Assembly: GCA_016935665.1 (NCBI GenBank) | Contig: JAFGQN010000081.1 | Coordinates: forward strand, 1-64,000 | DNA: 64,000 nt | Direction of reading: 5' to 3' | DNA from: Deltaproteobacteria bacterium | Lineage (GTDB): Bacteria; Myxococcota_A; Polyangia; JAAYKL01 | In this document: piece after piece, positions 13,636-63,130 of the stretch | How the letters are laid out: each line of letters begins with the position of its first letter | How positions within the stretch are numbered: position 1 is the first letter of the stretch | Program-made: the position numbers and the translations under genes | Notes under the pieces: model-generated | What the model saw: the letters and a program-made list of their open reading frames with translations, nothing else | Databases searched by the model: none | What the model was told of the DNA's origin: nothing

Positions 13636-13724
13636 AGTATCGTCGACGGAGGTTGCCGCTTTGAAAGTGCCGTAAAAATTCCCCAAAACACCAATGATTT
13701 GGTATAGCGGTTATGACGCATTCA

Positions 13725-13763
13725 CAGCAGCAGGGCACAGCAGCAGGGCACAGCAGCAGGGCA
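13725..13763. repeat. Three 13-bp tandem repeats before the TIR gene
   Basis: CAGCAGCAGGGCA occurs three times end to end, followed by two decayed copies. The 13-bp unit would shift frame each time, so the upstream ATG at 13713 is an unlikely start for the next gene. The bases around the two candidate starts (GCGGTTATGAC) are themselves duplicated. Confidence 0.75.
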
Positions 13764-13790
13764 CAGAAGCAGACACAGAAACAGGCGGTT

Positions 13791-16700
13791 ATGACAACAT
13801 CGGTTGAATCCAAATACCAATATGACGCGTTTATCAGCTACCGTCGCAAAGATGGGCGGCATATCGCCATGTGGCTGCGAAAACGCATTCAGCGATATCG
13901 GCTTCCTTTGGCATTTCGAAAACAGGCGGCCCATTTGTTTCCCCGGCAACTCAAAGTTTACCTGGATACGGCGTATGAGACCGCGACGGGGGATTTCTTT
14001 GACAACACCATCAAACCCGCTCTCTTGAAATCCAAACACCTGATTATCATTATTACACCCAGCGTTGCACAGCTGGATGCCGACAGTGCCGATAACTGGA
14101 TGGCCCGGGAATATCGGGATTTTTGCGCCAGGACCGACAGTTCGGCCGATAACGACAGAGACATCCTGTTGGTTTTGGCCCAGGGCGTCCATCATCCCGG
14201 CCCCTTGCCGGCGTATCTGGCAGCGGATTTTCCACGTGCCGAAGTGTTGGATTTTAGAAACTGGGCATCCAAATGGCCCCCGTCAAAATCGTATATGGCA
14301 AGGGAGTTTGAAAAGATTGTGCCCCCTCTGTTTGGTATTCCGTCCAGTGAGCTGCCCGCGCTGCGACAGGAAGAACAGCGCGCTGCCTTTCGAAAAAGAG
14401 CGCTTTGGACAACCACTGCCATCGGGTTGATTCTTACCTTTATGGCGCTGTTTCTGTGGAACGCTTCATTGCGAAAACAGGCCGAACAGGAAAAGGCGCG
14501 CGCGCAGCAGGCACGCCGTGTGGCGGAGAAAAATGAGCGGGTCGCCAACTATCATTTGGCACACATGTTTGAGGAAAAAGCCGATGCTGCGCTAAATGCC
14601 GCCAAATCCGGTTCCGGCGAGGGGGCATACCAGCAGGCATGGCTCTACACGTTGTCAGCCCTAAATCAAAAGATAGGCAAAACGCGCCATTTACCGACAT
14701 CGCTGGGCCAGCTTGGAAATTTGAACCTTCGGCGCGGGATACGTCAGGCGCTCTGGACATCTCCGAGTCTTCCGGAGACAGGCATTGCCGTGGCGTTCAG
14801 CCCCGATGGCAGGCGCATGGTTACCGGTTCATTCCATAATACGGTCTACCTGTTCGATGTGGACACCGGCAAAGAAATGGCGATCTATGACGGCCACGAA
14901 AATACCGTTCACAGCGTCGCCTTCAGCCCCGATGGAACGCATGTGGCGTCAGGATCTTTTGACAGAACCATCCGCATTTGGAATGTGAAAACCGGTACAC
15001 CGCGCCACATCCTGAAGGGACATGACGAATTGATCACCCGCATCGCATTTTCTCCCGATGGCCGTCGCATCGTCTCCGCATCATGGGATAACACCGTACG
15101 GCTTTGGGATGCCCAAACGGGCCAGTTCATCCGGGTTTTTAAAGGACACGACGATAGCGTTCAGGATGTGGCGTTTCATCCCAACGGAAAACAAATCGCC
15201 TCATGCGCAAAAGACAAAACAGTGCGCCTGTGGGATGTGGAAAAAGGAAAAACTCTCGCTGTTTTAAAGGGACACACCGGGGCGGTGAACAGCGTCGCCT
15301 TTTTTTTGGATGGCACGCGACTTGTCACTGGGGCCTCCGATAACAGCGTTCGGATATGGGATCTGAAAACGGAACAGGAGATAGCATTGCTCGAGGCACA
15401 CAATGATGGGGTGACAACCGTGACCGTCAGCCCGGATGGCCAAAAAGTCGCTTCCGGGTCCAATGACATGACGGTGCGCCTGTGGGACGCGACCTCCGGC
15501 AAATCGCTCGCCGTGCTCAAAGGCCACACCAGAGAGGTGTCGAATGTCGCGTTCAGTCCGGATGGACAATATCTCGCTTCCGCAGCATGGGATGAGACGG
15601 TGCGCCTCTGGAGCGCCGCCACAGGCAAAGCGCTGTCCAATTACACCGGGCATGGGGACAGCATTGAAGGCGTGGCCTTTAGTCCGGATGGAAAACGCGT
15701 GGCGTCCGGCGGCTCTGGCACAAGAGACAATACGGTGCGGCTGTGGGACGTTGAGACAGGTAAAGAACGGGCTGTTTTTTCAGGACACACAGATGACGTC
15801 AACAGCATTGCATTTAGTCCAAATGGACGATGGCTGGTGACGGGCTCAACGGACAAAACCATACGTCTGTGGGATGCAGGGGATGGTAAACCGCGTATCG
15901 TCTTTAAGGGGCATGAAAAAAGTGTGCGTATGGTCGCCTTCAGTGCCGATGGAAAAAAAGTGGTTTCGGGGTCAGATGACACCACCGTGCGGCTGTGGGA
16001 CGCAGGCAACGGCAACGCCCTGGCGGTTTTGGAAGGTCATGAAAAAAGTGTGCGCAGTGTGGCGCTCAGCCCGGATGACCGGTATATGGTTTCGGCATCG
16101 GACGATAAAACAATACGCCTGTGGGATTCGGTGAATCGCAGGGAACTGGCGTCGCTTAAAGGGCATGAAAAGGGCGTGGGCAGTGTCGCTTTCAGCACTG
16201 ACGGAAAACATGTCGCATCCGCTTCCGCCGATCATACAGTTCGTCTGTGGGACATACCGACAGGAGAAGAAGTTGCGGTGTTCAAAGGGAATCCCGATTC
16301 CCCATGGGGCTTTCACAGCGTGGCGTTCAGCCCGGACAACCAACTGCTGGCGTCCAGTTCCGAATCTACCATACAGCTGTGGCATATTCAAACCGGGAAA
16401 AATATTGCGGTGTTCAAGGGTCACAACGGAACGGTTCACAGTATCGCGTTCAGCCCGGATGGAAAACGCCTTGTCTCGGGCGCCGGCGATGGAACAATGC
16501 GTCTTTGGGATGTGCAAAGCTGCAATGTCGCGTCCTTCTTCTTTGGCGAGAACCTTTGGTTTCGCGCGATGACATTTAGCCCGGATGGGAAGCGCATGGC
16601 CTTTGGATTATGGGATATGCAGAACCCGTCGGATTCGTTAAAGCAAACCGTCCGCCTGTGGGACGCGGAAAAAGGCATGGAACGCGCTGTGTTCAAAGGG

Positions 16701-17678
16701 TATTCAAACACGGTCATCAGCCTGGCGTTCAGCCCCAATGGGCAGCTTTTGGCGTCTGGCACGTCGGAGGGAACCGTACGCGTCACAGATGTGAAAACAG
16801 GCAAAGAACTCGCCAGGTTACACGGCAATGACGGGGAGATTAACAGCGTGGCGTTCACTTCAGACGACAATCAGGTCATATCTGCCTCCAGACTGGGGTT
16901 CATACGCAAATGGGAGTTTGCCACCGGCAAAGAAGTCGCCTCACCGATTAAAGTGCCTGCGCGAACAAATAACATTGTCTTGAGCAAAGATGGCGCCTAC
17001 TGCGCGATGCATGACACGTTTAGTGAAGCTATCTCCCTTTGGGATACCCAAACCGGGAAAGCGCCACGGGTACTCAAGGGACATGAAAGTTATGTCAGCG
17101 CTCTGGCATTCACCCCCAGCGGAAACCACCTTGCATCCGGCGCATGGAATGGCGCCATACGTCTGTGGGATGTCGCAACAGCAAAGGAGATTGGGGTGCT
17201 TAAAGGACACGAAAAAAAAGTGGTCGATGTGGCCTTCAATGCCACCGGCGAGCGCCTTGTCTCCTGCGCCAGGGATGGCACAGTCCGACTGTGGGATGTA
17301 AAAACCGGTGCAGTACTCGCCGCTTTGGACGGATATGACCATCGCCTGGCACGCGTTGCATTTAACCCAAACGGCGACACCATTGTGTTCACCAGCACCA
17401 TGGCCAATTTCAGCAGCTTGGGCAACACGCTGCATCATTGGAAACTGGATTTGATAAACGCCTGGCTTGAATCCAAAAGAGAGGCGCCAATGTTCAAAAC
17501 GCTGTTCGATGCCTCCTTTAAATTGCTCCCCTGGCGCCTGGACGGCATCCGGCTGGTACCCGACCCAGAGCCCCGCGCCATTCCACTGAAACATGTTAAA
17601 AATACGAATGAACGATTCTTTGGTCCCCGTCCTTTGGGAGAGGATTTTGTGGATGCGCTTACGTCCAACATTGACTGA
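13791..17678 (+). CDS. TIR domain - membrane helix - 21 WD40 repeats
   Basis: 1295 residues from ATG 13791 (an ATG at 13713 is in frame but lies across slipped 13-bp repeats). Residues ~11-175 form a TIR domain: 'YDAFISYRRKDG', 'KVYLDTAYETATGDFF', 'LIIIITPS', and a W-x-x-x-E ('NWMAREYRDF', Glu107), which is where NAD-cleaving TIRs carry their catalytic glutamate. A single membrane helix lies at ~205-223, followed by a short charged coiled coil. From ~330 on there are 21 WD40 repeats (AFSPDG...VRLWD...GH), which would make three seven-bladed propellers, then ~70 residues without repeats. The TIR half is probably cytosolic and the propellers periplasmic or vice versa; topology is not settled. 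Likely a signalling or defence effector; substrate unknown. Confidence 0.85.
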   Translation: MTTSVESKYQYDAFISYRRKDGRHIAMWLRKRIQRYRLPLAFRKQAAHLFPRQLKVYLDTAYETATGDFFDNTIKPALLKSKHLIIIITPSVAQLDADSADNWMAREYRDFCARTDSSADNDRDILLVLAQGVHHPGPLPAYLAADFPRAEVLDFRNWASKWPPSKSYMAREFEKIVPPLFGIPSSELPALRQEEQRAAFRKRALWTTTAIGLILTFMALFLWNASLRKQAEQEKARAQQARRVAEKNERVANYHLAHMFEEKADAALNAAKSGSGEGAYQQAWLYTLSALNQKIGKTRHLPTSLGQLGNLNLRRGIRQALWTSPSLPETGIAVAFSPDGRRMVTGSFHNTVYLFDVDTGKEMAIYDGHENTVHSVAFSPDGTHVASGSFDRTIRIWNVKTGTPRHILKGHDELITRIAFSPDGRRIVSASWDNTVRLWDAQTGQFIRVFKGHDDSVQDVAFHPNGKQIASCAKDKTVRLWDVEKGKTLAVLKGHTGAVNSVAFFLDGTRLVTGASDNSVRIWDLKTEQEIALLEAHNDGVTTVTVSPDGQKVASGSNDMTVRLWDATSGKSLAVLKGHTREVSNVAFSPDGQYLASAAWDETVRLWSAATGKALSNYTGHGDSIEGVAFSPDGKRVASGGSGTRDNTVRLWDVETGKERAVFSGHTDDVNSIAFSPNGRWLVTGSTDKTIRLWDAGDGKPRIVFKGHEKSVRMVAFSADGKKVVSGSDDTTVRLWDAGNGNALAVLEGHEKSVRSVALSPDDRYMVSASDDKTIRLWDSVNRRELASLKGHEKGVGSVAFSTDGKHVASASADHTVRLWDIPTGEEVAVFKGNPDSPWGFHSVAFSPDNQLLASSSESTIQLWHIQTGKNIAVFKGHNGTVHSIAFSPDGKRLVSGAGDGTMRLWDVQSCNVASFFFGENLWFRAMTFSPDGKRMAFGLWDMQNPSDSLKQTVRLWDAEKGMERAVFKGYSNTVISLAFSPNGQLLASGTSEGTVRVTDVKTGKELARLHGNDGEINSVAFTSDDNQVISASRLGFIRKWEFATGKEVASPIKVPARTNNIVLSKDGAYCAMHDTFSEAISLWDTQTGKAPRVLKGHESYVSALAFTPSGNHLASGAWNGAIRLWDVATAKEIGVLKGHEKKVVDVAFNATGERLVSCARDGTVRLWDVKTGAVLAALDGYDHRLARVAFNPNGDTIVFTSTMANFSSLGNTLHHWKLDLINAWLESKREAPMFKTLFDASFKLLPWRLDGIRLVPDPEPRAIPLKHVKNTNERFFGPRPLGEDFVDALTSNID

Positions 17679-41666: not shown

Positions 41667-44600
41667 CTAATTATTAGTGCACCAGGAAGTGGAACCGTTG
41701 TTTTCACAGTGCTGAGTGGAACTGCAGGCCGTACATGTGCTTCCACAGTATTCATTGGAAGAACAGAACTTGCATCCCTCAATAGAACCAACGCATCGCT
41801 CGTAGCTTCCACAGGCTTCCCAACCACCCGCGCCATCTCCGCAATGGTCTCTGGTATTGGCTTCAACACAGTACCTGCTGTCACCGCAATAGAAGTTGTC
41901 CGGACACTGGGCATCACCGGCCGTATCTGCGCTGGGACAGGTCTGTTTCATACGGCAACAGCGGAAGCCCAGATTTTCCAGCCGATAATCTGCAGCCGAC
42001 CCATCGGCGGCAGAGAAGTCGAAATTGCAGGCCAGCCCATTGGCCAGGTCATTGAACGAACCACCGCGGATACCATACAGCGTCACACCTGTTCCCAGTT
42101 GTCGTGCAGTCCCCGTCCATTCCTCCACGTTGCCCGACAGGTCCATAACCAGAGAAGGATCAGTGTCAACATCCGGCCAATCCGCAATGCAATCCTCCAA
42201 ATCCGTATCACCGGACGGCCGCGCTGAAATATCCGTATCGGCGATACCAAAATCCAGTCCGTTGCAGGCAAGCGGGTCATACAATGCATCGTACGGATAA
42301 ACCAAATCAGTATCCGTCGCAAACAGAATTTCTCCCGCACAGGCATACTGCCATTGCTGCACGGTGCACAAATCCCAGCACCCTGCCGTATCATCTTCAC
42401 ACCCAGGCTGATTCAGCAAATCGCAGGCCGCTTCGGCATCGGCAAAATTGACATAGTTCCAGGGCATTCTGTCTGACCGCGAGCAGGCGACCGTGTGGCC
42501 GGACCCGCCCGCCGTGTCACTGGCATCCCAGCGGGAGGATTCGTATTTAAAAATCTGGAAAGAAAGTGATGTTCCCGCAGTATTGACATATGGTATCTCC
42601 ACATATTCCACATAGCCATCGGCGCCTTCGTCGGCAGTACCGTCGCAATCATTGTCAATGCCATCCGGAATGGTTCCTTCCGGTTTCTGATGCGCTGTCG
42701 AAGATAACATATTGATGATGTTGTCAGAATCACAGACGTACGGGTCCGAATTGGACAAATCACAGCAAACCGTGCCCTGACCATCCGGGTTGCACAGATA
42801 TTTGCCATAGCGCAAACACCCACCAACCGGCGTTGGAACAAGACCTTCATTGGAACACTCCGCCATCAACGGATCTGTATCGGTGTCTTCAGCGAACGAC
42901 TCATCCACCACACCGTCGCAGTTGCCATCCACACCGTCACACACGGCTTCACTCAGGGCGGGATTGGGCGCATCACCCAGCGCGCATTCGAGACCATCTC
43001 CGCCCAATCCGTCATCGTCGCAAACATAATCGCAGGCCCATTCTCCCGCATCAGTGTCACAGTAGTCACCGTTTACGTAGCCGGCATCACAGAGCCCATT
43101 GCAGGCGCCGGGATTGCTTAGTCCTTCGTCCACATTGCCATCGCAATTGTCGTCTATCCCATTGCATTCCTCCAGTGTAATGTCTTCATCAATCTGACCG
43201 TCACAATCATCATCCACGCCATACTGACTATTGACGCCATCACATCTATCGCAGGCCGTATCACCATCACAATAGGTATTGTATTCGCATTCGCACCCGT
43301 CCGTCTTTCCGTTTTCAACATCGTGATACCCAAAAACGCAGGTCTTCAGTTCGCAAACTCCGGCCTGGCAATAGTATTCCGCGACATGCAAGTCCGTATC
43401 CGCCAGCAGAGTGGTGCAATCACTGTCGCATCCACCGCAGTGATGCACGTTGTTGTCAAACTGAAAATCCTCATCCGCTGTGCCATCACAGTCATTGTCG
43501 ATACCATCACAAAGTGTTTCCACACTGGCATGAGTGTAACAGTTGGCGTCTCCGCATTCCACGCCGGCAGCCGAGTCGTACTGACATGTCCAGTCGATGG
43601 CGCCGCCGCATACCGCCGCTTTGGTCCCCGGGCAGTTAGCGTTGCACAATGTATCCGTATCCGGTGGCGTCAACCCTTCATCCACCTCGCTGTCGCAGTC
43701 ATTGTCCACACCGTCGCATTTTTCGATGTCGTGATCAGTTCCCACCTCATCACAATACATGCCGGAAGCGCCGCATTTCCATAGTCCCTCTTCACAAAGA
43801 TCGGAATCCTCATCCCCGTCACAGGCTTCATAGTAGTTGGGCTCGTCAAAACCGTTTGGGGTATCGGGATTGCAATCCTCATCATTGTCAGCGGGATCAC
43901 ACAATTCGGCTCCCGGAGTCGGTTCGTTCGCACAGTAAATAAGGCCATTGGTATCACACTCCAGATTTCCCCCGGTGCACGGAGACCCACAGGGACGATC
44001 AGAATCCTGTCCATAAAATGCGTCTTCATCCACGTCACCATCGCAATCGTTGTCCAGGCCATCACATATGTCACAATGCCCCGGAGTGGCGCAATCGTCG
44101 TCCGGGCCTACTTCCCATCTACATATTCTAAGATCTGTCCCCGTTTCAGTATCGTCGGTGTCTCTGCAGCTGCGCTGGCCCCCCTGACATATACCCCGAC
44201 TGTAGTCATCGCCGCAACGGGTGTCCGTGTCTGCGAAGGCGCAGACAACATCAATGGAACCGCCGCATCGATAATTCTCCAGCTCATCCACAATGCCATC
44301 ACAGTCATTATCCAGGCCATCACAATCAATTTCCAGGGATGTCGGCATATAGGCGCAGCCAGGCGCAGCCTTGCCATTGGTATCGGTTTCGCATCGCTGC
44401 AGATACTCGCCGCATACACCTGCGCCACAGGTCTGCTTCAGGCGGTTGTCATACATGGAAATGTTGTTGTTGTTTCCATCCGCATCCGTATCCTCATCCA
44501 CCAGCCCGTCGCAGTCATTGTCAAGACCATCGCATACCTCACCCGATGGCCCCACTGCGCCCGAACATCCTGCACTGGTATCGTAGACGGGATACGAGAC

Positions 44601-47600
44601 ATCCAGATCCGCTGAAATGCAACGCGCCACCCCGGATTGACAGCTGCCGACATTTGGATCCGTGCCGTCAGCGCCGCCACAGGCGATGGTCAGTCCTTCA
44701 TCTGTAATGCCATTGCAGTTGTTGTCGATACCATCACATATTTCAAGAGCTGCCAGTGTAAATCCCTGACATTGTAAATTACCATCCACACATACATTGG
44801 TTCCCGGCGCGCAGATACCTGGACAATCCGTATCACCAAAAGGCGCAACACAGCCACTGGATCCCGCAGGATAGCACGGCGTATTGTACTCAGGATATGA
44901 TTCGTCAATCTGACCATCACAGTTGTTGTCCTTCGCGTCACACACTTCATCTGTGTCCATATTTCCATCAGAGTCGTCGTCGGAAATCACACACGGATGC
45001 TCACAACCATTGGCGCTGTTGCTGTCGTTGTTCCACCAGTTTGCATCGCAATCCCCCATGACACACGCTCCACCCACACAAAGCGCGGCCGCATGATCGA
45101 AACGACAGATATGACCGCAGTATCCACAGTTATTGGCATCGGTTTGAAAATTCACATCTTCGTCGAGCAGACCATCGCAGTCGTTATCCTGAGGCACGTA
45201 ATTGTCATTTTCGGGATCTGCTGAAGACGCAATTCCATCGCACTTATCCGCGTTGTCCGCCATATCCACAGTGGGTTTGCAATAATACTCACACCCATCC
45301 GCACTGTTGCTGTTCACATCCGACCAGTACGTTTCACAGGACATCAGCGTACACGTTCCCGCCACACAGGTGGAGGACGCATGGGGAAGAATACACACCG
45401 CACCGCATGCGCCGCAGTTGGAGGGATTGGTCTGCACATCCACACAGAACTCGTACCCCGCATCGTTCGTACAACACGTTTCGCTGGTGTCACAGGCGCT
45501 GCATCCCAACAAAGAGGTATCTGTTGTTGTATCACTGTCACTGATGGAATCCGAGACGGAATCCAATCCACTGGTGCCATCGGTGCCGCTGGTATCCCCG
45601 CTGGTGGAATCACTGTCGCTTCCACCGTTGTCACCGCCAAACGTGGACGTACCGCCATGTATCGGTCGACCATCCGTACCGTCGGCTCCTTCAAATTCAA
45701 ACGGGTCCACTGAACACCCCACCGTCAGAAGCAGCAGCAGTGCCCACAACCCAACCCGCATGGCTTTGGTCATCAACGTCTTTTTGTCCCTTTGACGCAT
45801 CAATCTGAACATGGCAATTCCTCCAGCCAGAAGTACAAATATCCACCCGCCAAACGTCGCGGGGCCAGACCCGGGTGCCGTGCTGCACATGCAACCGCCG
45901 GAACCGGATGCCAACACCCTGTCGAGTCCTTCGTAGTCATCTGTTTTTTCCGGCTCGGCCGGTTTGCCGCTATCAGAATCCTGTGCATCGTCTGAGGCGG
46001 TGTCGTTTGCGCCGGAATCCGTCCCATCCGTATCGCCCGTTCCGGATGTATCTTCGCCTGCCACGGTAACAAAGCCGCCTGGGGCATAACACGATCCATC
46101 TTTACATACCGTGCCATTGGGACAGGTCACGTTCATGCAGTCATCAAAGATGCACGAACCATCCACACAGGTTTCATAGTATTCGCACACCACGCCTTTG
46201 CAGCTATTGGTGAGGGTATTGTCACATTTCCCGGTCGCTGGATTACACAGCACACCGGTGGAACAAATAACGCCGGCACACGCGTCTGTCACACACACAC
46301 CGTCCTGACACCCCTGACCCGCCGGACATTCAACTTCTACACAGGTGCTCACACAGGTACCGCTGGTATTGCAATACTGCCCCTCCTCGCAGGTCACCGT
46401 CCAACATGGATCCGCAACACACAGCGTGCAGGGTTCCTCGGTGCACTGCGCAATGGCTTCGCACCGCTGGCCATCGGGACAGCCGGTAATCATGCAGCCT
46501 TCAGTGGTGGCATGGCAACGGCCGTTGTCTTCGGGAATGCACGCCTCTCCATCCGGACACGTCTTGCTGTAACAGACATCCACACACAGACCGGCCAACG
46601 GATCACAGGAACACGGCCCCACAAAATCATAGCCGGGTGTGCAATAATACTCATTAAATACGCACGGCAGCGCATCGGGCCGTGTGGGTTCACACAGCGT
46701 CGACAAACAGATCTTCAAACCACCGCGCACCTCGATGCACGATTTGCCCACAGGACATTCAAACTCACCAGTCCCGCACGGTTCCGCGCACTCCCCTTCA
46801 ATACACGAGGATCCCGCAGACGGACATTCCACCTGGTCTTCCTCATCCACCAAGCCGTCACAGTCGTTGTCCAGACCGTCGCATACCTCGGCGGTGGGTC
46901 CTGGTACATCGCAGATCCATTCACCTTCAACGCATTTCTCCACCGATGCCGGACACTCGCCAATGCCATCCGGATATGTGGTCTGCATCGCCGGGTCACT
47001 CATCCAGAACGGGGTTTTGGAACAGGGATCCCGCGTCAGATTCTCGTCGGTTTGCCCATCACAGTCGTTATCCAATCCGTCACAGATTTCCGCGCTTCCC
47101 GACGAGCCCCCCAGACATACTATTTCATATCCGTTTATCGCCGATCCATCTGTATCCCCCGTGTACATGCACTGGTATACGCCTGGTGTGCATACGCCAA
47201 GATACGATCCACAATCCTGTCCATTCTCAGCAACATCGTCGATGTTGCCGTCACAATCATTGTCGATACCATCGCAGATTTCCTGAGTGGGCAGGCTCGG
47301 TTCAATGCATTCGCTGTCAGAATCCCAATGTGCCGCGTCACAGCATTGGAGATCATGTTCGCTGTCTGTCAGTATGCACTTTAAAATGCCTCTTTCACAT
47401 GCGCCCTGCCCAACCTGACAAATGACTTCGACATCCCAGTTTTCGTCTGTTAATCCATCGCAGTCGTTATCAATGCCATCACACGCTTCCGCAACCGGAT
47501 TCACTTCGCCATAGCACGCCGGATCCCATGCGCCGGCCACTTCATCGCAGTACTGGTATCCCTGCTCGCAGGCGCCGGCAGCCGGGTCTGTATCGATGCA

Positions 47601-50600
47601 GTCCCAATCCGTATCCACCCCCACTTCGCAGCCGCCGCACGGAACGGGCGCGATGCCATCATCGGGAACACCATTGCAGTTTTCATCCAGGCCATTGCAT
47701 TCTTCATCTGTTGCGATGGCGCTGTTGCATTCCAGCTTGTACGAGCCAAATTGTCCCTCCGGCACGGCATTATCGCGAACACATTCGTAAACGCCGTTGC
47801 AGGACCCACAATCCAGCCCAACAAACGATTCCACCTGATTGAAGCGCAGGTCATCGGTATCGTCCCCATCATTCAATCCATCACAGTCGTCATCAAGACC
47901 GTTGCACAATTCGCCCTTGGGAATATTGCCTCCCACACAGGCTCCCCACATGTCTGAATCCGATTCAGTATCTCCGTCACACTGCCGCACACCAAAGGCG
48001 CATTCTCCAAGTGGCGGATCCGTGACGTCGTTTGTATCCCAGCCATCTGGAACACAGCTTTGAGTCACCCCTTCGTCTACAGCATCATTGCAATTGTCAT
48101 CCAGGCCGTTGCATACTTCCGTCACCGGATCCTGGTAACCGCCACACTTCAGGGATCCGTCAATGCAGTCAACTGTTCCAATATGGCAAAGCCCCAAACA
48201 ATTCCAGGAGCCAGGACTGCTCGTATCTTCTTCACAGCCACTCAACCCGCTGGGGTAGCAGTCGTTTCCAAAGGGCGCCGCATATTCCGTATCCTCATCG
48301 ACCTCACCATCGCAGTCATCATCCCTGCCGTTGCATTTTTCCGCCACCGGATCCTGCCACGATGTCAAATCGGAATCACAAATAAACACGGCGTTGTCCG
48401 TGGAGGATTCGGCCGGGTCGCACAGACCGAGCCCCGTGCGGCACTCACCTGCGCCCGGATTGCCAGAAACGCAGCTGAAACTGGTGTCCGTATCAAAACG
48501 GTAATCGCACCCGCCGCACGCGCCATAAACGCCTTCGTCCACGGTGCCATCGCAGTTATTGTCCAGTCCGTCACACACTTCCACCTGTGGTCGAACAATA
48601 TCCATACCGCCATCGCCAACACACGAATAAGAGCCATTTTGGCACACATAATGCCCCGGGTTGCATATGGATTGGCCGCCCACCACCCATCCATCGGCGC
48701 CGACGGGACATACCCCCCCCAGGGGCGCATCTTCATCGACGCTGCCATCACAGTCTTCGTCAATCCCGTTGCATGTAGCGTCCGTGTCATAGCTTCTCGT
48801 CACCTGGGTGACCGTGTTGCATCCCAGGGTATCGCTTTCGGTATCGCAGTACAGCAGTCCGGCGCGACAAACGCCTTTACAGTTTTCTCCATCTGCGTCG
48901 CATCCGCTGTCCGTGCCCGTGTAACAGCCGTCGCCCTTCCCCTGAAAGTTTTCATCCACCTGGCCGTTGCAGTTGTCATCCAGGCCATTGCATTCCTCAA
49001 GGCCGGCCGGCGTGTCGCCCTGACAATCCCATGTGCCGGGACTCACACAAACGTATGTGCCTTCCGAGCATTCACCAACAGCAGAGCCGCAGGGGCCGCC
49101 GGTCAGCCCCCAATTGTCCAAATCCGCATCGCCATTTTCATCAATCAACCCATCACAGTCATTGTCCACGCCATCGCATTGCTCCACATTGGGACCAATA
49201 TAATTCACACAGGTTTTACCATCGCCCCCCTGAATGCATTTCCATGTGCCCGCCCGGCACGGAGCCAAAAGCGTTCCGCTACCGCTCAACTGCGTTGCCA
49301 GGTAGGGATAGGCCACAGCATCCGCAGCACTTATACATGACTGTCCAAAATCCGGGTCTTCACTGGTGTCCCACGCGCCATCATCGGGCGTTTCATCGAC
49401 AACGCCGTCGCAGTTGTCGTCGATTCCGTCACATACGGTTTCGCCCGGATCTTCACACACGTTGGGCCAATAGCTGTTGGTCCCCTGCGTTCCCAGCACA
49501 TTGTGCATATCGCACGGGGATCCGGGATTATCCGTATCAGTGTTAATAACACCTTCATCGATTTCGCCGTCGCAATCGTCATCCAGGTAGTTGCACTGCT
49601 CAAAAGCGAGAGATTCGCTAACGATATAAAACAGGGCTGCGGAGAGGGCTTCCTGGGAGTACGCTGTAAACGCAGAACCAAAGTTATCCGGATCATAATG
49701 TCCACCTCCCAATTCGGCCATGTTGTCCAAATCCTCATCGGAATATGCCAACCCAATTACCCATGTATCAATGCCTGCCGCCTGCAACGCAGCAACTGGT
49801 CCAATATCGGGATCAGTATTGGAACTTGTTGGGTCGATACTGCCATTCCAGGCCCCGTCTGTCAGCATAATGACTGTATACTTTCTGCAGCTGGAATAGC
49901 TGTCCATCGACTTTGCGTCGGCGATATAATAGTATGCCGCACGCATCGCCTCGCCCAGAGGCGTCCCTCCACTGGCGCGCAATTCCTGCTCCAGTCCGTC
50001 TCCAGTAGGACCAGGATACTGTGATGTATCTGCTGATGGTCTTCCGGAGGTATCAAGAACAGGCAGCCCACTTGTGTCCACGTCAGTATCGATGGCATAC
50101 TCATGATGATCCATCCAAGTTAAGATTTCATATCGACTGTTCTCCGTATTTACACTTCTACCATAAAGCAAATCTGTTCCAGTTGAACTATAGTCCCCAA
50201 ATCCAACCGCCAAATAATTGGAGACGATGCCCCAATCGCCATTCCCGGCATAACGAAATCTGTCGTACCATCCGCTGCGCTGATTATCCTGGTAATACGT
50301 AGCGCGATAGGTATTGTTGTCATACGCAGGTTGTTCGCTCTGATAATCTTGAGAAAATTTTAATAGGCCGAATTCAATTTCACCGGAAGCATTTAACATC
50401 TGCACCATTGCTTCTTTGGCTGCATAAATCCGGGATTGCTGCCCCGCCGCAAGTGACGTTCCAGGACAACACTTTCTGCCCGAAAGCCACGGATCGTAGC
50501 TGCCATCACCCAATACGTAAGTCCCGTCAAAGTCCCACGCCATACTCCCCGAAGTATCGAACACGATGAGGATACGCGGTTTTATCTCGTACAATGTCTG

Positions 50601-50684
50601 TGCACTCGCGGGTGTGGCGCACAGCCATACCGCGGATATGAGAACTGCAAAGAACAATACTGGATTGATTCGCAGAGAATTCAT
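41667..50684 (-). CDS. Giant surface polyprotein: VWA, MopE-type repeats, MYXO-CTERM-like tail, internal lipoprotein signal, FGE-like domain
   Basis: 3005 residues from ATG 50684 (AAGGAG seven bases upstream; signal peptide ends ASAQ). VWA domain ~30-340 with metal site 'VFDTSGSMAW' and 'IMLTDGAWNG'. Then 14 repeats of the type CDGLDNDCDGLVDE, a Cys-rich run, and 'GGCMCSTAPGSGPATFGGW' leading to a helix and 'RLMRQRDKK', which looks like a MYXO-CTERM sorting tail. Without any stop the frame goes on 'TLMTKAMRVGLWALLLLLTV' to Cys (codon 45714-45716), a full lipoprotein signal. The second half has an Asp/Ser/Thr linker, about 13 more repeats and an FGE-sulfatase-like domain ('GNVEEWTG', 'RGGSFND', 'NLGFRCC'), then a Cys-rich end. 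MopE-type repeats bind metal (calcium or copper) in known cases. Confidence 0.8.
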   Translation of the reverse strand: MNSLRINPVLFFAVLISAVWLCATPASAQTLYEIKPRILIVFDTSGSMAWDFDGTYVLGDGSYDPWLSGRKCCPGTSLAAGQQSRIYAAKEAMVQMLNASGEIEFGLLKFSQDYQSEQPAYDNNTYRATYYQDNQRSGWYDRFRYAGNGDWGIVSNYLAVGFGDYSSTGTDLLYGRSVNTENSRYEILTWMDHHEYAIDTDVDTSGLPVLDTSGRPSADTSQYPGPTGDGLEQELRASGGTPLGEAMRAAYYYIADAKSMDSYSSCRKYTVIMLTDGAWNGSIDPTSSNTDPDIGPVAALQAAGIDTWVIGLAYSDEDLDNMAELGGGHYDPDNFGSAFTAYSQEALSAALFYIVSESLAFEQCNYLDDDCDGEIDEGVINTDTDNPGSPCDMHNVLGTQGTNSYWPNVCEDPGETVCDGIDDNCDGVVDETPDDGAWDTSEDPDFGQSCISAADAVAYPYLATQLSGSGTLLAPCRAGTWKCIQGGDGKTCVNYIGPNVEQCDGVDNDCDGLIDENGDADLDNWGLTGGPCGSAVGECSEGTYVCVSPGTWDCQGDTPAGLEECNGLDDNCNGQVDENFQGKGDGCYTGTDSGCDADGENCKGVCRAGLLYCDTESDTLGCNTVTQVTRSYDTDATCNGIDEDCDGSVDEDAPLGGVCPVGADGWVVGGQSICNPGHYVCQNGSYSCVGDGGMDIVRPQVEVCDGLDNNCDGTVDEGVYGACGGCDYRFDTDTSFSCVSGNPGAGECRTGLGLCDPAESSTDNAVFICDSDLTSWQDPVAEKCNGRDDDCDGEVDEDTEYAAPFGNDCYPSGLSGCEEDTSSPGSWNCLGLCHIGTVDCIDGSLKCGGYQDPVTEVCNGLDDNCNDAVDEGVTQSCVPDGWDTNDVTDPPLGECAFGVRQCDGDTESDSDMWGACVGGNIPKGELCNGLDDDCDGLNDGDDTDDLRFNQVESFVGLDCGSCNGVYECVRDNAVPEGQFGSYKLECNSAIATDEECNGLDENCNGVPDDGIAPVPCGGCEVGVDTDWDCIDTDPAAGACEQGYQYCDEVAGAWDPACYGEVNPVAEACDGIDNDCDGLTDENWDVEVICQVGQGACERGILKCILTDSEHDLQCCDAAHWDSDSECIEPSLPTQEICDGIDNDCDGNIDDVAENGQDCGSYLGVCTPGVYQCMYTGDTDGSAINGYEIVCLGGSSGSAEICDGLDNDCDGQTDENLTRDPCSKTPFWMSDPAMQTTYPDGIGECPASVEKCVEGEWICDVPGPTAEVCDGLDNDCDGLVDEEDQVECPSAGSSCIEGECAEPCGTGEFECPVGKSCIEVRGGLKICLSTLCEPTRPDALPCVFNEYYCTPGYDFVGPCSCDPLAGLCVDVCYSKTCPDGEACIPEDNGRCHATTEGCMITGCPDGQRCEAIAQCTEEPCTLCVADPCWTVTCEEGQYCNTSGTCVSTCVEVECPAGQGCQDGVCVTDACAGVICSTGVLCNPATGKCDNTLTNSCKGVVCEYYETCVDGSCIFDDCMNVTCPNGTVCKDGSCYAPGGFVTVAGEDTSGTGDTDGTDSGANDTASDDAQDSDSGKPAEPEKTDDYEGLDRVLASGSGGCMCSTAPGSGPATFGGWIFVLLAGGIAMFRLMRQRDKKTLMTKAMRVGLWALLLLLTVGCSVDPFEFEGADGTDGRPIHGGTSTFGGDNGGSDSDSTSGDTSGTDGTSGLDSVSDSISDSDTTTDTSLLGCSACDTSETCCTNDAGYEFCVDVQTNPSNCGACGAVCILPHASSTCVAGTCTLMSCETYWSDVNSNSADGCEYYCKPTVDMADNADKCDGIASSADPENDNYVPQDNDCDGLLDEDVNFQTDANNCGYCGHICRFDHAAALCVGGACVMGDCDANWWNNDSNSANGCEHPCVISDDDSDGNMDTDEVCDAKDNNCDGQIDESYPEYNTPCYPAGSSGCVAPFGDTDCPGICAPGTNVCVDGNLQCQGFTLAALEICDGIDNNCNGITDEGLTIACGGADGTDPNVGSCQSGVARCISADLDVSYPVYDTSAGCSGAVGPSGEVCDGLDNDCDGLVDEDTDADGNNNNISMYDNRLKQTCGAGVCGEYLQRCETDTNGKAAPGCAYMPTSLEIDCDGLDNDCDGIVDELENYRCGGSIDVVCAFADTDTRCGDDYSRGICQGGQRSCRDTDDTETGTDLRICRWEVGPDDDCATPGHCDICDGLDNDCDGDVDEDAFYGQDSDRPCGSPCTGGNLECDTNGLIYCANEPTPGAELCDPADNDEDCNPDTPNGFDEPNYYEACDGDEDSDLCEEGLWKCGASGMYCDEVGTDHDIEKCDGVDNDCDSEVDEGLTPPDTDTLCNANCPGTKAAVCGGAIDWTCQYDSAAGVECGDANCYTHASVETLCDGIDNDCDGTADEDFQFDNNVHHCGGCDSDCTTLLADTDLHVAEYYCQAGVCELKTCVFGYHDVENGKTDGCECEYNTYCDGDTACDRCDGVNSQYGVDDDCDGQIDEDITLEECNGIDDNCDGNVDEGLSNPGACNGLCDAGYVNGDYCDTDAGEWACDYVCDDDGLGGDGLECALGDAPNPALSEAVCDGVDGNCDGVVDESFAEDTDTDPLMAECSNEGLVPTPVGGCLRYGKYLCNPDGQGTVCCDLSNSDPYVCDSDNIINMLSSTAHQKPEGTIPDGIDNDCDGTADEGADGYVEYVEIPYVNTAGTSLSFQIFKYESSRWDASDTAGGSGHTVACSRSDRMPWNYVNFADAEAACDLLNQPGCEDDTAGCWDLCTVQQWQYACAGEILFATDTDLVYPYDALYDPLACNGLDFGIADTDISARPSGDTDLEDCIADWPDVDTDPSLVMDLSGNVEEWTGTARQLGTGVTLYGIRGGSFNDLANGLACNFDFSAADGSAADYRLENLGFRCCRMKQTCPSADTAGDAQCPDNFYCGDSRYCVEANTRDHCGDGAGGWEACGSYERCVGSIEGCKFCSSNEYCGSTCTACSSTQHCENNGSTSWCTNN

Positions 50685-50929
50685 CGACAACTCCTTCGGG
50701 CTAAAGTGGCCGCACGTCGCCGGTGCGGCATTCGTCATTTCTTTTCTATACGGGTGTGTGCCCCCGTGAATTAATAGATGCGTCAGCTTTTCCGGTTTTA
50801 TGAAAAAATTTTAATGAAATTAATACTTTAGAGAGTCTTCACTGACCCAGATGAGTGCATTTTGACCGGTGTTTTTGTGCAGGGGTGCAACCGCTTTTTT
50901 GTATTCGTTTTTTTTGGCGTCAAAATCAC

Positions 50930-52184: not shown

Positions 52185-52309
52185 ATAATGGAAGTTCCAT
52201 TTGACGGTTTTTTTCCTGTATGCTTTCATTTTGATGTATTTGGAAATTTAATTGTTGAAGATTTTACAGAAGAGCTATTCTCTTGTTTCAGTTCAGATGG
52301 AGCACGTTT

Positions 52310-53464
52310 ATGATAATCAGAAAAGTTAAACTCAAGAACTGGCGCAATTTTCGCAGCGTTTCGTTCGATTTAAAAAGCACAACGTATGTGCTCGGTCCCA
52401 ACGCTTCGGGAAAATCAAATCTGCTCGATGTATTTCGATTTCTTCGGGATGTCTGCAATCCACGCGGTGGTGGTCTGCAGACAGCAGTGGACCGCAGAGG
52501 CGGTATAAAAAACCTTAGATGTCTTCATGCGAGACGAGACACAGAGGTTGTTTGTGAGTTTTATTTTTCCGATGATTTTAACGAAAGCATTACATGGAAC
52601 TATATTCTTGGATTTAAACCCGAAGGAAAGGGGGCACAGAGACTCCTTGTATCCACTGAACGCGTAGTCAAAGGGACTCAAACCATTCTGGACCGCCCTA
52701 ATGATGCCGACAAAAAAGACCCGTACCAGCTTACCGAAACACATCTTGAACAGGCAAGGTCCAACCGGGAATTTCGAGAAATCTCCGATGTTTTCAGAAA
52801 AACGGTTTATCTGCATCTTGTTCCCCAATTATTGAAATACGATTCGCTATCCTCCAGCGCCAGTGTGGAGGATGATCCGTTCGGATTCAGATTTCTCGAA
52901 ATTATTGCCGCTACGCCCACCCGTACGCGGGATTCAAGGTTGAAGAAAATTCAAAATGCCCTAAAAGATGCCGTTCCCAATTTTGAACAGATTGTGTTCG
53001 AAAAAGACGAAAACACCGGGAAACCGCACTTAAAAGGCCGCTATTCTCATCATCGTCCCAATGGCGCATGGCAACGGGAAGATCAATTTTCAGATGGAAC
53101 CCTGCGCCTGATTGGCATTCTCTGGAGTTTGCTGGATGGAGAAGGACTGTTACTGGTGGAGGAGCCTGAATTGTCTTTAAACTCGGAGGTGGTCAAACAG
53201 ATTCCGATTTTAATTGAACAGATACAGAAACAGCGAAAAAAGAAAAGACGCCAGGTCATTCTCTCAACTCACAGTGAATCACTTCTAACCAATCCGGGAA
53301 TCGATTCAGAAGGTATTGTGATACTTGAACCAACCACTGACGGCACCACAATCAGAACGGTAAGCCCCCCGGAAAAAGCAGCTATCGAATCGGGAATTTC
53401 TGTCGCCGAGGTTATTCTACCCAAAATGGCGCCATCCAATGCAGGCCAGATGCGTTTACTATAG
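52310..53464 (+). CDS. AAA ATPase (RecF/OLD-like), probable defence component
   Basis: 384 residues from ATG 52310 (TGGAG eight bases upstream). N-terminal 'IRKVKLKNWRNFRSVSFDLK' and Walker A 'LGPNASGKSNLLD', Walker B 'GLLLVEEPELSLN' and a switch 'VILSTHSESLL' place it with the ABC-type ATPases of the AAA_21/OLD group. It is short, with no TOPRIM domain of its own. The next gene, 12 bases on, encodes a DUF4276 protein. Similar ATPase/TOPRIM-like pairs (OLD, PARIS) sense phage and kill or arrest the cell. The defence role is inferred. Confidence 0.85.
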   Translation: MIIRKVKLKNWRNFRSVSFDLKSTTYVLGPNASGKSNLLDVFRFLRDVCNPRGGGLQTAVDRRGGIKNLRCLHARRDTEVVCEFYFSDDFNESITWNYILGFKPEGKGAQRLLVSTERVVKGTQTILDRPNDADKKDPYQLTETHLEQARSNREFREISDVFRKTVYLHLVPQLLKYDSLSSSASVEDDPFGFRFLEIIAATPTRTRDSRLKKIQNALKDAVPNFEQIVFEKDENTGKPHLKGRYSHHRPNGAWQREDQFSDGTLRLIGILWSLLDGEGLLLVEEPELSLNSEVVKQIPILIEQIQKQRKKKRRQVILSTHSESLLTNPGIDSEGIVILEPTTDGTTIRTVSPPEKAAIESGISVAEVILPKMAPSNAGQMRLL

Positions 53465-53476
53465 TGAGGAAATCCG

Positions 53477-54082
53477 TTGGAATGGTTTGTAGCAACAGAA
53501 GATGACCTCAGTAATGCGCTGGCGAGCAAAATGGTTCATTTCATCGATAACGCCGCGATACTCCACCCTTTAGGAAAGAAGACCGGATTTGGACAACTGA
53601 AATCCAAAATTGCTTCATATTGCAGGCTGGCCGAACAGGGACATTATCCTGTTATTGTAATTACGGATTTGGACGACACATGTTGTGCCCCGTCAATGAA
53701 AAACGAATGGATTCAAGATGGAGTGCTCCCTGCCATGCTTATATTTCGAATAGCCGTTCGGGAAGCCGAAGCCTGGCTGCTGGCCGATAGCGCGCAATTT
53801 GCCAAAACATTTGGCGTATCTGAAGGAAAAATACCCCGTGATGTTGAAACCCTGACCAATCCGAAGGAACAAATGCTGGCTCTGTTGAAAAAACACGGAA
53901 ATCGAAAAAGTAAAGCGCTCCTGCCTCGCAGAGGATGTAATGCTTCTGTTTCTCTTGAATACAATCGTATTTTGACCGAATTCGTGACGCATTCATGGCA
54001 TCCTCAACGAGCGAGGAAACGGTCACAGAGCCTTTCAAAAACACTCGATAGAATCGCGGCACTATACAACAAGCGGAAATAG
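53477..54082 (+). CDS. DUF4276 protein paired with the ATPase
   Basis: 201 residues from TTG 53477 with GAGGA six bases upstream; the first ATG codons downstream would cut off conserved sequence. Family features are 'GFGQLKSKIASYCRLAEQG', 'VIVITDLDDTCCAPS' and 'MLIFRIAVREAEAWLLAD', with the acidic residues (D-x-D-D and E-x-E) expected of a TOPRIM-like metal site. DUF4276 genes commonly neighbour ATPases of the preceding type. It probably supplies the nuclease or RNA-targeting activity of the pair (inference). Confidence 0.8.
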   Translation: MEWFVATEDDLSNALASKMVHFIDNAAILHPLGKKTGFGQLKSKIASYCRLAEQGHYPVIVITDLDDTCCAPSMKNEWIQDGVLPAMLIFRIAVREAEAWLLADSAQFAKTFGVSEGKIPRDVETLTNPKEQMLALLKKHGNRKSKALLPRRGCNASVSLEYNRILTEFVTHSWHPQRARKRSQSLSKTLDRIAALYNKRK

Positions 54083-61129: not shown

Positions 61130-63130
61130 TTATTCGATAGCACAGTGCAGGTACCCGCCGTACAGACCATCGCTGTACAGATACAGATCATTTGGTGCAA
61201 CGCCGCACATAACGCGGGTGAATTCGATCAGATTATCCGGCATCAACTGCCACTGACAGTCGCCACTCAGAATCGATCCATCGGGTGTCACCAGCGGCAA
61301 GATTACTTCCTCATTATAAATGCCTCCTCCCAGGCTGCCGGCCCAATCCGCGTCGCCGACTTTACACGCGGAAAATGCATCCATTGGTCCTTTGAGCACG
61401 GTTCCCATCCTCCCGGTGACGCTAACGAAATTGCCTACCACAGAGGCATATGTCAATTGCACAGATAGCAGAGATTCAGTAACGGATGTTTCCACAATAC
61501 GCCAGCCCGAGGCGTCCCCGGCAACCATTTTTCCGGCATCTCCCACCGCCACCAGCAACAGGTTGTCATCGCTGATGACGCTACTGATATCATTGAATCG
61601 TCCATTGTTTTCGGGCGCGACCACTTCTGTCCAGGCGTGACCATTATAAAACGCTATGCCGTTGCCTGCGGCATAAATGTTCAGAGGATTTCCGGTTCCC
61701 ACAAAATGCGGATTTTCGCCAAGCCATGCAGGCAGCTGACCATTTTCTACGGCTTCAATCACATTCGACTCAGCGTCAAAATTAAGCACGTAAAGATGAC
61801 ACGTGTCATCATCGGGGTCACACAGCGTCACCATCATGTGAGGGGGGCCCACTCCGTCCAGGCGTTTAAGGTTTCTTCCAACCAGATTGTCCGGAATGTT
61901 TTCGAGCTGATACGTCATCACATTGACTTCACCATCCCAGCCAACCTCGCCAATCTCCACAAACGGACCGTCGCTGATGCTGTTGCCGAGAAGTGCAAAA
62001 CCGTTGTACCCGCCATCCATGTCCACATAAACGGCATCATCTCCAAACGAGTGCTTCAGCTCCAGGGTCTCAACCGGCCAGGATTCACATTCACTCGATT
62101 CAATTGGAGGGGGACACCAGTTCAGTCGCGCCGGCTCAGGCAACGCACTTCCGGGCAATGTGCGTACCGGCCGAATCCCAACATCGTAGCCTGGATATAA
62201 CGAATTGGCGCGACCTCTGTTTGCGGCGCGGCAACTGTCAAATCCCAAAATTGAACTGTGAAAGCTGCCACCTCGCAAAGAGATATACCCCATGTCCACA
62301 TCGCCGTATGGACTATCTGGCGTCTCGTTGCTGTAATGGCCCTCCCATGTCGCCAGCTCCATCACGTTGCCAATCATGTCCACCAATCCCAGATCATTCG
62401 GTTTGCCCAACGCCACCGATCTTGCATGCAGTTCGTCATTGTCGATTCCCGAAAAACCACACCAGGCAATATCTGAAAGCACGTCGGCCGCTATCTCGCC
62501 CGCAAAATTGCCGGCATAGGTGGCTCTTGTGTCGCCTGCTCTGGCCGCTCTTTCCCACTCTGATTCCGTAGGTAATCGATACCCCGGACAATGCAAAGGT
62601 GTTTTCCACTGACTTTTGTTTTTATAACATGGAGTCAATCCCATGGTTTCAGAGAGCGCATCCAGCCATGCTTTGGCCGCATCCACGCTCACCCCTGGAA
62701 CAGGACAGTCATCATCGTGGCAAATGGGTCGACAATTCCGGTCATCGTCCGCACAAACAGTGGGGTTACATAAATCTTCGTAACCGGAAGGCAGTGCCTT
62801 CCACTGAGCACAGGTCACTTCCGTTTGTAAAACGGCATATCTGTGAACGAGTGTGACATCGTGCAGCATTTCGTCAGTGCGCCGGCCGTATTCTTCTTCG
62901 GGCGATCCCATGGTAAACGTACCTTCAGGAATCTCTATCCATTTCATTTGTTTGAGAATCGCAGGAGCATCTCCGATTGCAGCGGTAGCGTTATTCGTGT
63001 CCCTGTCATCATTGCCCGTATCGTCGGCGTGGCCACTTTCAGTGGATTCAGACGGGCCTCCCGAGGATTTCCAGCCACAACTGCCGGCACACCACACAAC
63101 GGCAAACAGAATATACAAAATACGTGTCAT
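61130..63130 (-). CDS. FGE-sulfatase-domain lipoprotein
   Basis: 666 residues, AAGGGA before the start, lipobox 'CAGSC'. Residues ~60-330 form a formylglycine-generating-enzyme-like domain: 'MKWIEIPEGTFTMGSPEEEY', 'YRLPTESEWERAARAG', 'DMIGNVMELATW', 'LRGGSFHSS'. The final family motif is 'VGIRPVR' rather than GFR, and the catalytic Cys pair of true FGE is not evident, so it is more likely a binding or structural relative. The last ~320 residues are beta-rich (propeller-like 'GDAGKMVAGDASGWRI') and end with two Cys. Confidence 0.8.
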   Translation of the reverse strand: MTRILYILFAVVWCAGSCGWKSSGGPSESTESGHADDTGNDDRDTNNATAAIGDAPAILKQMKWIEIPEGTFTMGSPEEEYGRRTDEMLHDVTLVHRYAVLQTEVTCAQWKALPSGYEDLCNPTVCADDDRNCRPICHDDDCPVPGVSVDAAKAWLDALSETMGLTPCYKNKSQWKTPLHCPGYRLPTESEWERAARAGDTRATYAGNFAGEIAADVLSDIAWCGFSGIDNDELHARSVALGKPNDLGLVDMIGNVMELATWEGHYSNETPDSPYGDVDMGYISLRGGSFHSSILGFDSCRAANRGRANSLYPGYDVGIRPVRTLPGSALPEPARLNWCPPPIESSECESWPVETLELKHSFGDDAVYVDMDGGYNGFALLGNSISDGPFVEIGEVGWDGEVNVMTYQLENIPDNLVGRNLKRLDGVGPPHMMVTLCDPDDDTCHLYVLNFDAESNVIEAVENGQLPAWLGENPHFVGTGNPLNIYAAGNGIAFYNGHAWTEVVAPENNGRFNDISSVISDDNLLLVAVGDAGKMVAGDASGWRIVETSVTESLLSVQLTYASVVGNFVSVTGRMGTVLKGPMDAFSACKVGDADWAGSLGGGIYNEEVILPLVTPDGSILSGDCQWQLMPDNLIEFTRVMCGVAPNDLYLYSDGLYGGYLHCAIE

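Follow-up and report, generated by a model that had tools for sequence, protein, structure and literature searches.

A single-frame gene joining two predicted surface modules through back-to-back anchoring signals: a candidate bacterial polyprotein that alternates with overlapping gene pairs

The window, by which we mean the whole stretch of 64,000 nucleotides of deltaproteobacterial DNA that was analysed, comes from an 8.16-Mb genome assembled into 249 contigs. It contains a gene of 3005 amino acids that is translated as one unbroken frame on the minus strand, from 50684 to 41667. The limits 41667-50684 were placed correctly in the initial annotation and the strand is minus; reading the same interval on the plus strand gives only stops. 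The start at ATG 50684 is preceded by an AAGGAG Shine-Dalgarno sequence, and an in-frame ATG at 50738, upstream of it, is an alternative start. The features of the gene are as follows.

41667-50684, minus: whole fused gene, with AAGGAG before ATG 50684
50601-50684, minus: predicted N-terminal Sec signal peptide MNSLRINPVLFFAVLISAVWLCATPASA, followed by Q (..TPASA/Q), read from the sequence
49560-50579 (approximate limits), minus: VWA-like domain with MIDAS residues DTSGS, GGTPLG and LTDG (VWA_2 match; invariant columns)
46842-49595, minus: MopE-type repeats of the first half, 13-14 copies (Cu-binding_MopE, E=2.2e-49)
46086-46826, minus: Cys-rich repeat region ahead of the first anchoring signal
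45789-45902, minus: internal MYXO-CTERM-like tail (TIGR03901), consisting of GSGGCMCSTAPG, transmembrane helix 1 (TM1) and basic residues
45807-45857, minus: TM1
45810-45824, minus: GGAGG, 7 nt, then ATG within TM1, a possible internal start that the paralogues lack
45768-45776, minus: TTGATGACC, with out-of-frame TGA TGA resembling the overlap of split gene pairs, and with no nearby Shine-Dalgarno sequence
45756-45806, minus: predicted basic cytoplasmic loop RLMRQRDKKTLMTKAMR, the end of signal 1 and the n-region of signal 2
45714-45755, minus: transmembrane helix 2 (TM2), ending in the lipobox TVG/C (Cys codon 45716-45714)
41670-45713, minus: second half, with acidic S/T/D/G linker, Cys-rich region, MopE repeats and FGE domain
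41952-42500, minus: FGE-sulfatase-like domain PF03781 (E=3.5e-6)

Profile matches and residue patterns show module 1, the first half, to be composed of a predicted signal peptide, a VWA-like domain, and MopE and Cys-rich repeats, ending in a MYXO-CTERM-like tail of the form GGCxC-TM-basic. The VWA assignment had been made in the initial annotation and holds at the level of the MIDAS residues (DTSGSM..GGTPLG..TDG), although the Pfam VWA_2 match (E=2.3e-4, 22.2 bits) lies under the gathering cut-off of 27. One PDB match to this region, a single DARPin with E=0.018, was judged to be due to chance. The MopE repeats (PF11617) score 165.7 and 111.7 bits, above the gathering cut-off of 27, and the 14 copies first proposed for this half become 13-14, with 13 counted by regular expression. 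Module 2 is similarly shown to start with the second hydrophobic segment and its putative lipobox Cys and to continue with an acidic linker, MopE repeats and an FGE domain. This last domain had been overlooked previously; it matches FGE-sulfatase PF03781 with 27.3 bits against a gathering cut-off of 23.3, and among the relatives many second halves terminate in an FGE-like domain. The presence of VWA and MopE repeats suggests a role in metal-dependent adhesion or in a surface layer. A strong FGE-sulfatase domain (E=2e-31) is also encoded by a separate minus-strand gene in the window, at 61130-63130.

The two modules meet at a compact junction. Module 1 ends in VLASGSGGCMCSTAPG, with the motif GSGGCMCS (GGCMC), followed by a helix and then a basic cluster, so that the conserved Cys motif, the helix and the basic cluster of a MYXO-CTERM are all present, although the tail is internal, at about residue 1600 of 3005, and not at the extreme C-terminus. 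The tail scores 22.1, 20.7 or 18.4 bits against TIGR03901 depending on the flank used, and it is a borderline member of this model (cut-off 20) because of the 18.4 bits obtained with the longer flank. The candidate lipobox, LTVG/C (LLLTVGC), fits the relaxed core with a basic n-region, but with T at -3 and V at -2 it is unlike the classical LAGC; the sequence after its Cys (45716) is SVDPFEFEGADG. This lipoprotein signal is internal in the fused form, whereas in split relatives it is N-terminal. AlphaFold2, given a 13-row alignment of the junction, predicts two helices at residues 128-147 and 154-172 of 280, separated by a short turn and with pLDDT of about 70-85, and the segment outside them is modelled as mostly disordered. 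We did not adopt the term 'lipo-invert' (invert_tail, NF058595) for the junction, as the match is 14.9 bits against a cut-off of 37 and this loose model also matches all 14 control genomes; no paper using the term was found in the open-licence literature.

The same organization is found elsewhere in the genome and in related genomes. Contig C166 carries two paralogues (3284 and 3332 codons), each in one frame and with its parts in the same order; their halves are each 46-50% identical to those of the window protein, and identity over the junction is 40%. A profile built from these three junctions (window and paralogues) identified ten junction-spanning single-frame proteins in five further genomes belonging to this family; a relative, the Deltaproteobacteria MAG 'ZodW_Metabat.284', carries one of them. 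The lipobox Cys and both Cys of GGCxC do not vary in the family alignment (13/13). The order of parts at the junction is beyond chance because it is conserved in the two paralogues, in the ten same-family proteins and in dozens of proteins across the class, and since the frames are single in paralogues and in other genomes alike, a separate error in each is not a tenable explanation. These sequence comparisons confirm that the fusion of both modules is real and long-inherited. Close relatives with two genes had been envisaged as the case that would speak against it, but all ten same-family proteins are fused. Both paralogues and one further protein (G001a) carry an additional C-terminal extension, matching PA14 in G001a (E=2.5e-5), that the window protein lacks (loci L005, 4500-14498, and L006/L007, C166 34870-44724).

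A class-wide profile search of 318 genomes returned two kinds of matches: in one the match extends over the GGC motif, within frames of about 1000-4200 aa, and in the other it starts at the second hydrophobic segment. We hand-picked 60 class-level loci from the listed matches, a non-exhaustive selection, and classified them by frame: 35 are fused by rule and four more on inspection (39 in all), and 15 are split. Three further split pairs were recognised by their upstream tails, and two loci have no such partner directly upstream. Adding the 13 family proteins brings the cases examined to 52 fused and 18 split, with fused proteins in 13 families of the class; among the matches listed from a partial sample of 237 genomes of the phylum, no fused junction was found outside the class. 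Both kinds coexist in some genomes (G314, G160 and G059). At each of the 15 split loci a matching GGC-TM-RRRR tail, in a different frame, closes the upstream gene, and all 15 pairs, which were read base by base, overlap by ATGA or GTGA (4 nt) or by TGATG (1 nt), with a GGAGG-type Shine-Dalgarno sequence just upstream of the overlapping start. The first gene stops with TGA in all of them because the stop sits within the overlap. The two halves, which the initial annotation proposed to seek as separate genes elsewhere, occur as such in 18 two-gene relatives, and the 15 of these that were read have the ATGA/TGATG-type overlap that had been imagined.

Fused and split forms are homologous in both halves, as illustrated by a fused and a split representative (G113a and G037a) that share 64% and 71% identity. 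In a tree computed from 425 alignment columns of 69 second halves, a hit-driven sample that includes two long-branch rows, eight changes between fused and split are needed and at least seven are forced by well-supported branches, with fusion indistinguishable from fission in the direction of change. The 13 family proteins form one fully supported group and are all fused.

The putative signals at the junction are well conserved among the 52 fused members. Every one has a GGC-like motif and a hydrophobic stretch followed by Cys, and in every one the inter-helix loop carries more positive charge than the flanks on both sides, with a mean net charge of +5.75 compared with -0.1 in the 25 residues before TM1 and -7.7 in the 40 residues from the Cys. 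The residue at -1 to the lipobox Cys is G in 49, A in two and S in one. A relaxed lipobox core is found in 44/52 fused and 14/15 split members, and five of the 52 fused lipoboxes are odd at -3 or -2; TIGR03901 is matched at E<=0.01 by 14 of 25 fused tails scanned. The invariance of the Cys is somewhat inflated by the choice of hits, because the loci were recognised partly by this residue, although loci that failed the first filter also have the lipobox Cys when read by eye. What the initial annotation put forward on anatomy, on topology and on two candidate processing signals holds, and it is retained in every fused member sampled.

Candidate processing enzymes are encoded in the same genome. 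A CPBP protease matches Mrt_core with 127.8 bits (cut-off 100) and has the EExxxR and HxxxN motifs, and relatives of the myxosortase-core CPBP protease are found in 14/14 family genomes searched; none of the full-length myxosortase equivalog models (MrtP, MrtC, MrtX) reaches its cut-off in the window's genome. Two adjacent LspA homologues (PF01252, Peptidase_A8) are located at G000:C82:106270-107525 (L097, L098). MrtX has been shown experimentally to cleave MYXO-CTERM tails in a manner requiring the motif cysteines, and lipidation of the MYXO-CTERM Cys is a prediction (PMC11980579). We propose that module 1 would be exported by Sec, that TM1 would bring the chain back to the cytoplasmic side, and that TM2 would export module 2. 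A myxosortase-family protease could then cut at the lipidated GGCxC Cys to leave module 1 anchored by its C-terminus, and Lgt and LspA could process the TM2 Cys to leave module 2 anchored by its N-terminus, with the hairpin discarded after both cuts. If the hairpin is discarded, a fused gene and a two-gene operon would give the same pair of proteins at 1:1, and evolution could therefore switch between the arrangements. The interchange of fused and split forms is the strongest indirect support for this scheme, because it is expected if both arrangements yield the same products. We consider it probable, judging from sequence, that the protein is a polyprotein of two surface modules that is cut twice to give two lipid-anchored proteins equivalent to the products of the two-gene form. 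With somewhat less assurance, the balance tips towards a broader proposal, that such surface polyproteins are widespread, with a myxosortase tail and a lipoprotein signal sharing one basic loop, and that double cleavage makes fused and overlapping genes equivalent, allowing free switching between them.

An unlikely but not negligible alternative is that the fused protein stays uncut, with both modules kept at the outer face of the inner membrane by the two helices, which would act as a permanent hairpin anchor. A pair of helices flanking a short basic loop is both modelled and conserved, and the helices alone would account for the hydrophobicity, cleavage being an inferred step in the double-cut scheme; however, a permanent hairpin leaves unexplained why GGCxC is conserved and why TM2 terminates in G/A/S-Cys, as well as the separate proteins of relatives that bear the same signals. 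Partial processing, in which one signal is used so that one half is lipid-anchored and the other half keeps its helix, is more doubtful still. It would fit the looseness of the lipobox at -3 and -2 in some members and the modest MYXO-CTERM scores, but both cysteine motifs are kept in the sampled fused members of 13 families.

Additional translation of the second half on its own, from an internal start at either the GGAGG-7-ATG at 45824-45810 or the ATG at 45773, is very improbable. A good Shine-Dalgarno sequence and an ATG do lie inside TM1 of the window gene, but pairs of a 5-nt Shine-Dalgarno sequence and a start occur in two of the 52 fused genes compared with 1.1 expected from codon shuffles, and since two are seen against 1.1 expected, the example in the window gene is at chance level. 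An overlap-type start with a 5-nt Shine-Dalgarno sequence, located 96 to 36 nt upstream of the Cys codon, is present in 14/15 split pairs and 0/52 fused genes, where codon-shuffled fused genes predict 0.31; the second half of the fused form is therefore not normally started alone, and these counts rule out an independent internal start as a conserved feature. Overlap-like motifs occur in 17 of the fused genes compared with 16.4 expected from codon shuffles, and we do not regard it as proven that TTGATGACC is left over from an overlap, as its presence alone is no evidence for one. An assembly or sequencing error, with a false indel joining two overlapping genes, was a reasonable idea given the TTGATGACC context and the genuine overlapping pairs in relatives, but it is scarcely credible when the fusion is repeated in two paralogues, which lie on a different contig and have about 45-50% protein identity, as well as in ten proteins from five further genomes, and when the Shine-Dalgarno sequence of the two-gene relatives is missing from the fused genes. 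The indel put forward as a rival in the initial annotation thus fails as an error or a one-off event, in view of the fusion in two paralogues and ten same-family homologues, and survives in part as history, in view of the 18 class-level pairs.

The doubly cut polyprotein that we favour resembles several known systems in part. Like MYXO-CTERM proteins processed by MrtX, such as TraA (PMC11980579), the window protein has a signal peptide, a GGCxC-like motif, one helix and a basic cluster, in a genome with a myxosortase-core CPBP protease, but its tail is internal and is followed by 1350 aa more with their own export and lipid signal. TraA and TraB are likewise encoded by two overlapping genes of which the first ends in a MYXO-CTERM (PMC11980579), but their domains differ from those of the split pairs described here and the likeness is one of gene arrangement. 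Internal MYXO-CTERM tails are reported to be rare, and one of them, in MXAN_5598, is thought by the authors to reflect a fusion of two genes and is proposed to be still processed (PMC11980579). MXAN_5598 also has a second exported module after the tail; this is described as an outer-membrane barrel with OmpA domains, whereas module 2 of the window protein is a predicted lipoprotein and its arrangement is widespread. The window's genome also encodes an internal MYXO-CTERM of another kind (G000:C28:9166-9270, L096; GGVSCLCSS-TM-RRRL), which resembles the description of MXAN_5598, with a signal-peptidase-I-like ATQAMAQDA and an OmpA-like end after the tail and no lipobox. The second signal of the window protein has the basic n-region, hydrophobic stretch, lipobox Cys and flexible linker of bacterial lipoproteins processed by Lgt and LspA, but differs from them in beginning mid-protein, after a membrane helix.

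To our knowledge, bacterial polyproteins have seldom been described. One such polyprotein, FbcH of Bradyrhizobium, is cleaved at an internal signal sequence, but it involves signal peptidase I and cytochromes and has no lipid anchors, unlike the window protein. Our search of the open-licence literature yielded no description of an internal MYXO-CTERM directly before an internal lipoprotein signal, or of its recurrence, and nothing relevant on FbcH, on bacterial polyproteins or on MopE in myxobacteria; both the pairing and its recurrence appear to be new. Back-to-back anchoring signals in 13 families, alternating with two-gene operons, constitute a natural test of whether C-terminal sorting tags and lipoprotein signals can function within a chain. 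If the proposed processing is true, the two surface proteins would be a functional unit, which would explain equal amounts in a large envelope system.

Two other regions of the window are of note. On the plus strand at 52283-54082, an AAA_21 ATPase gene is followed by a DUF4276 gene, resembling a mobile or defence-type module, and at 13713-17678, also on the plus strand, a 1321-aa protein contains many near-identical WD40 repeats.
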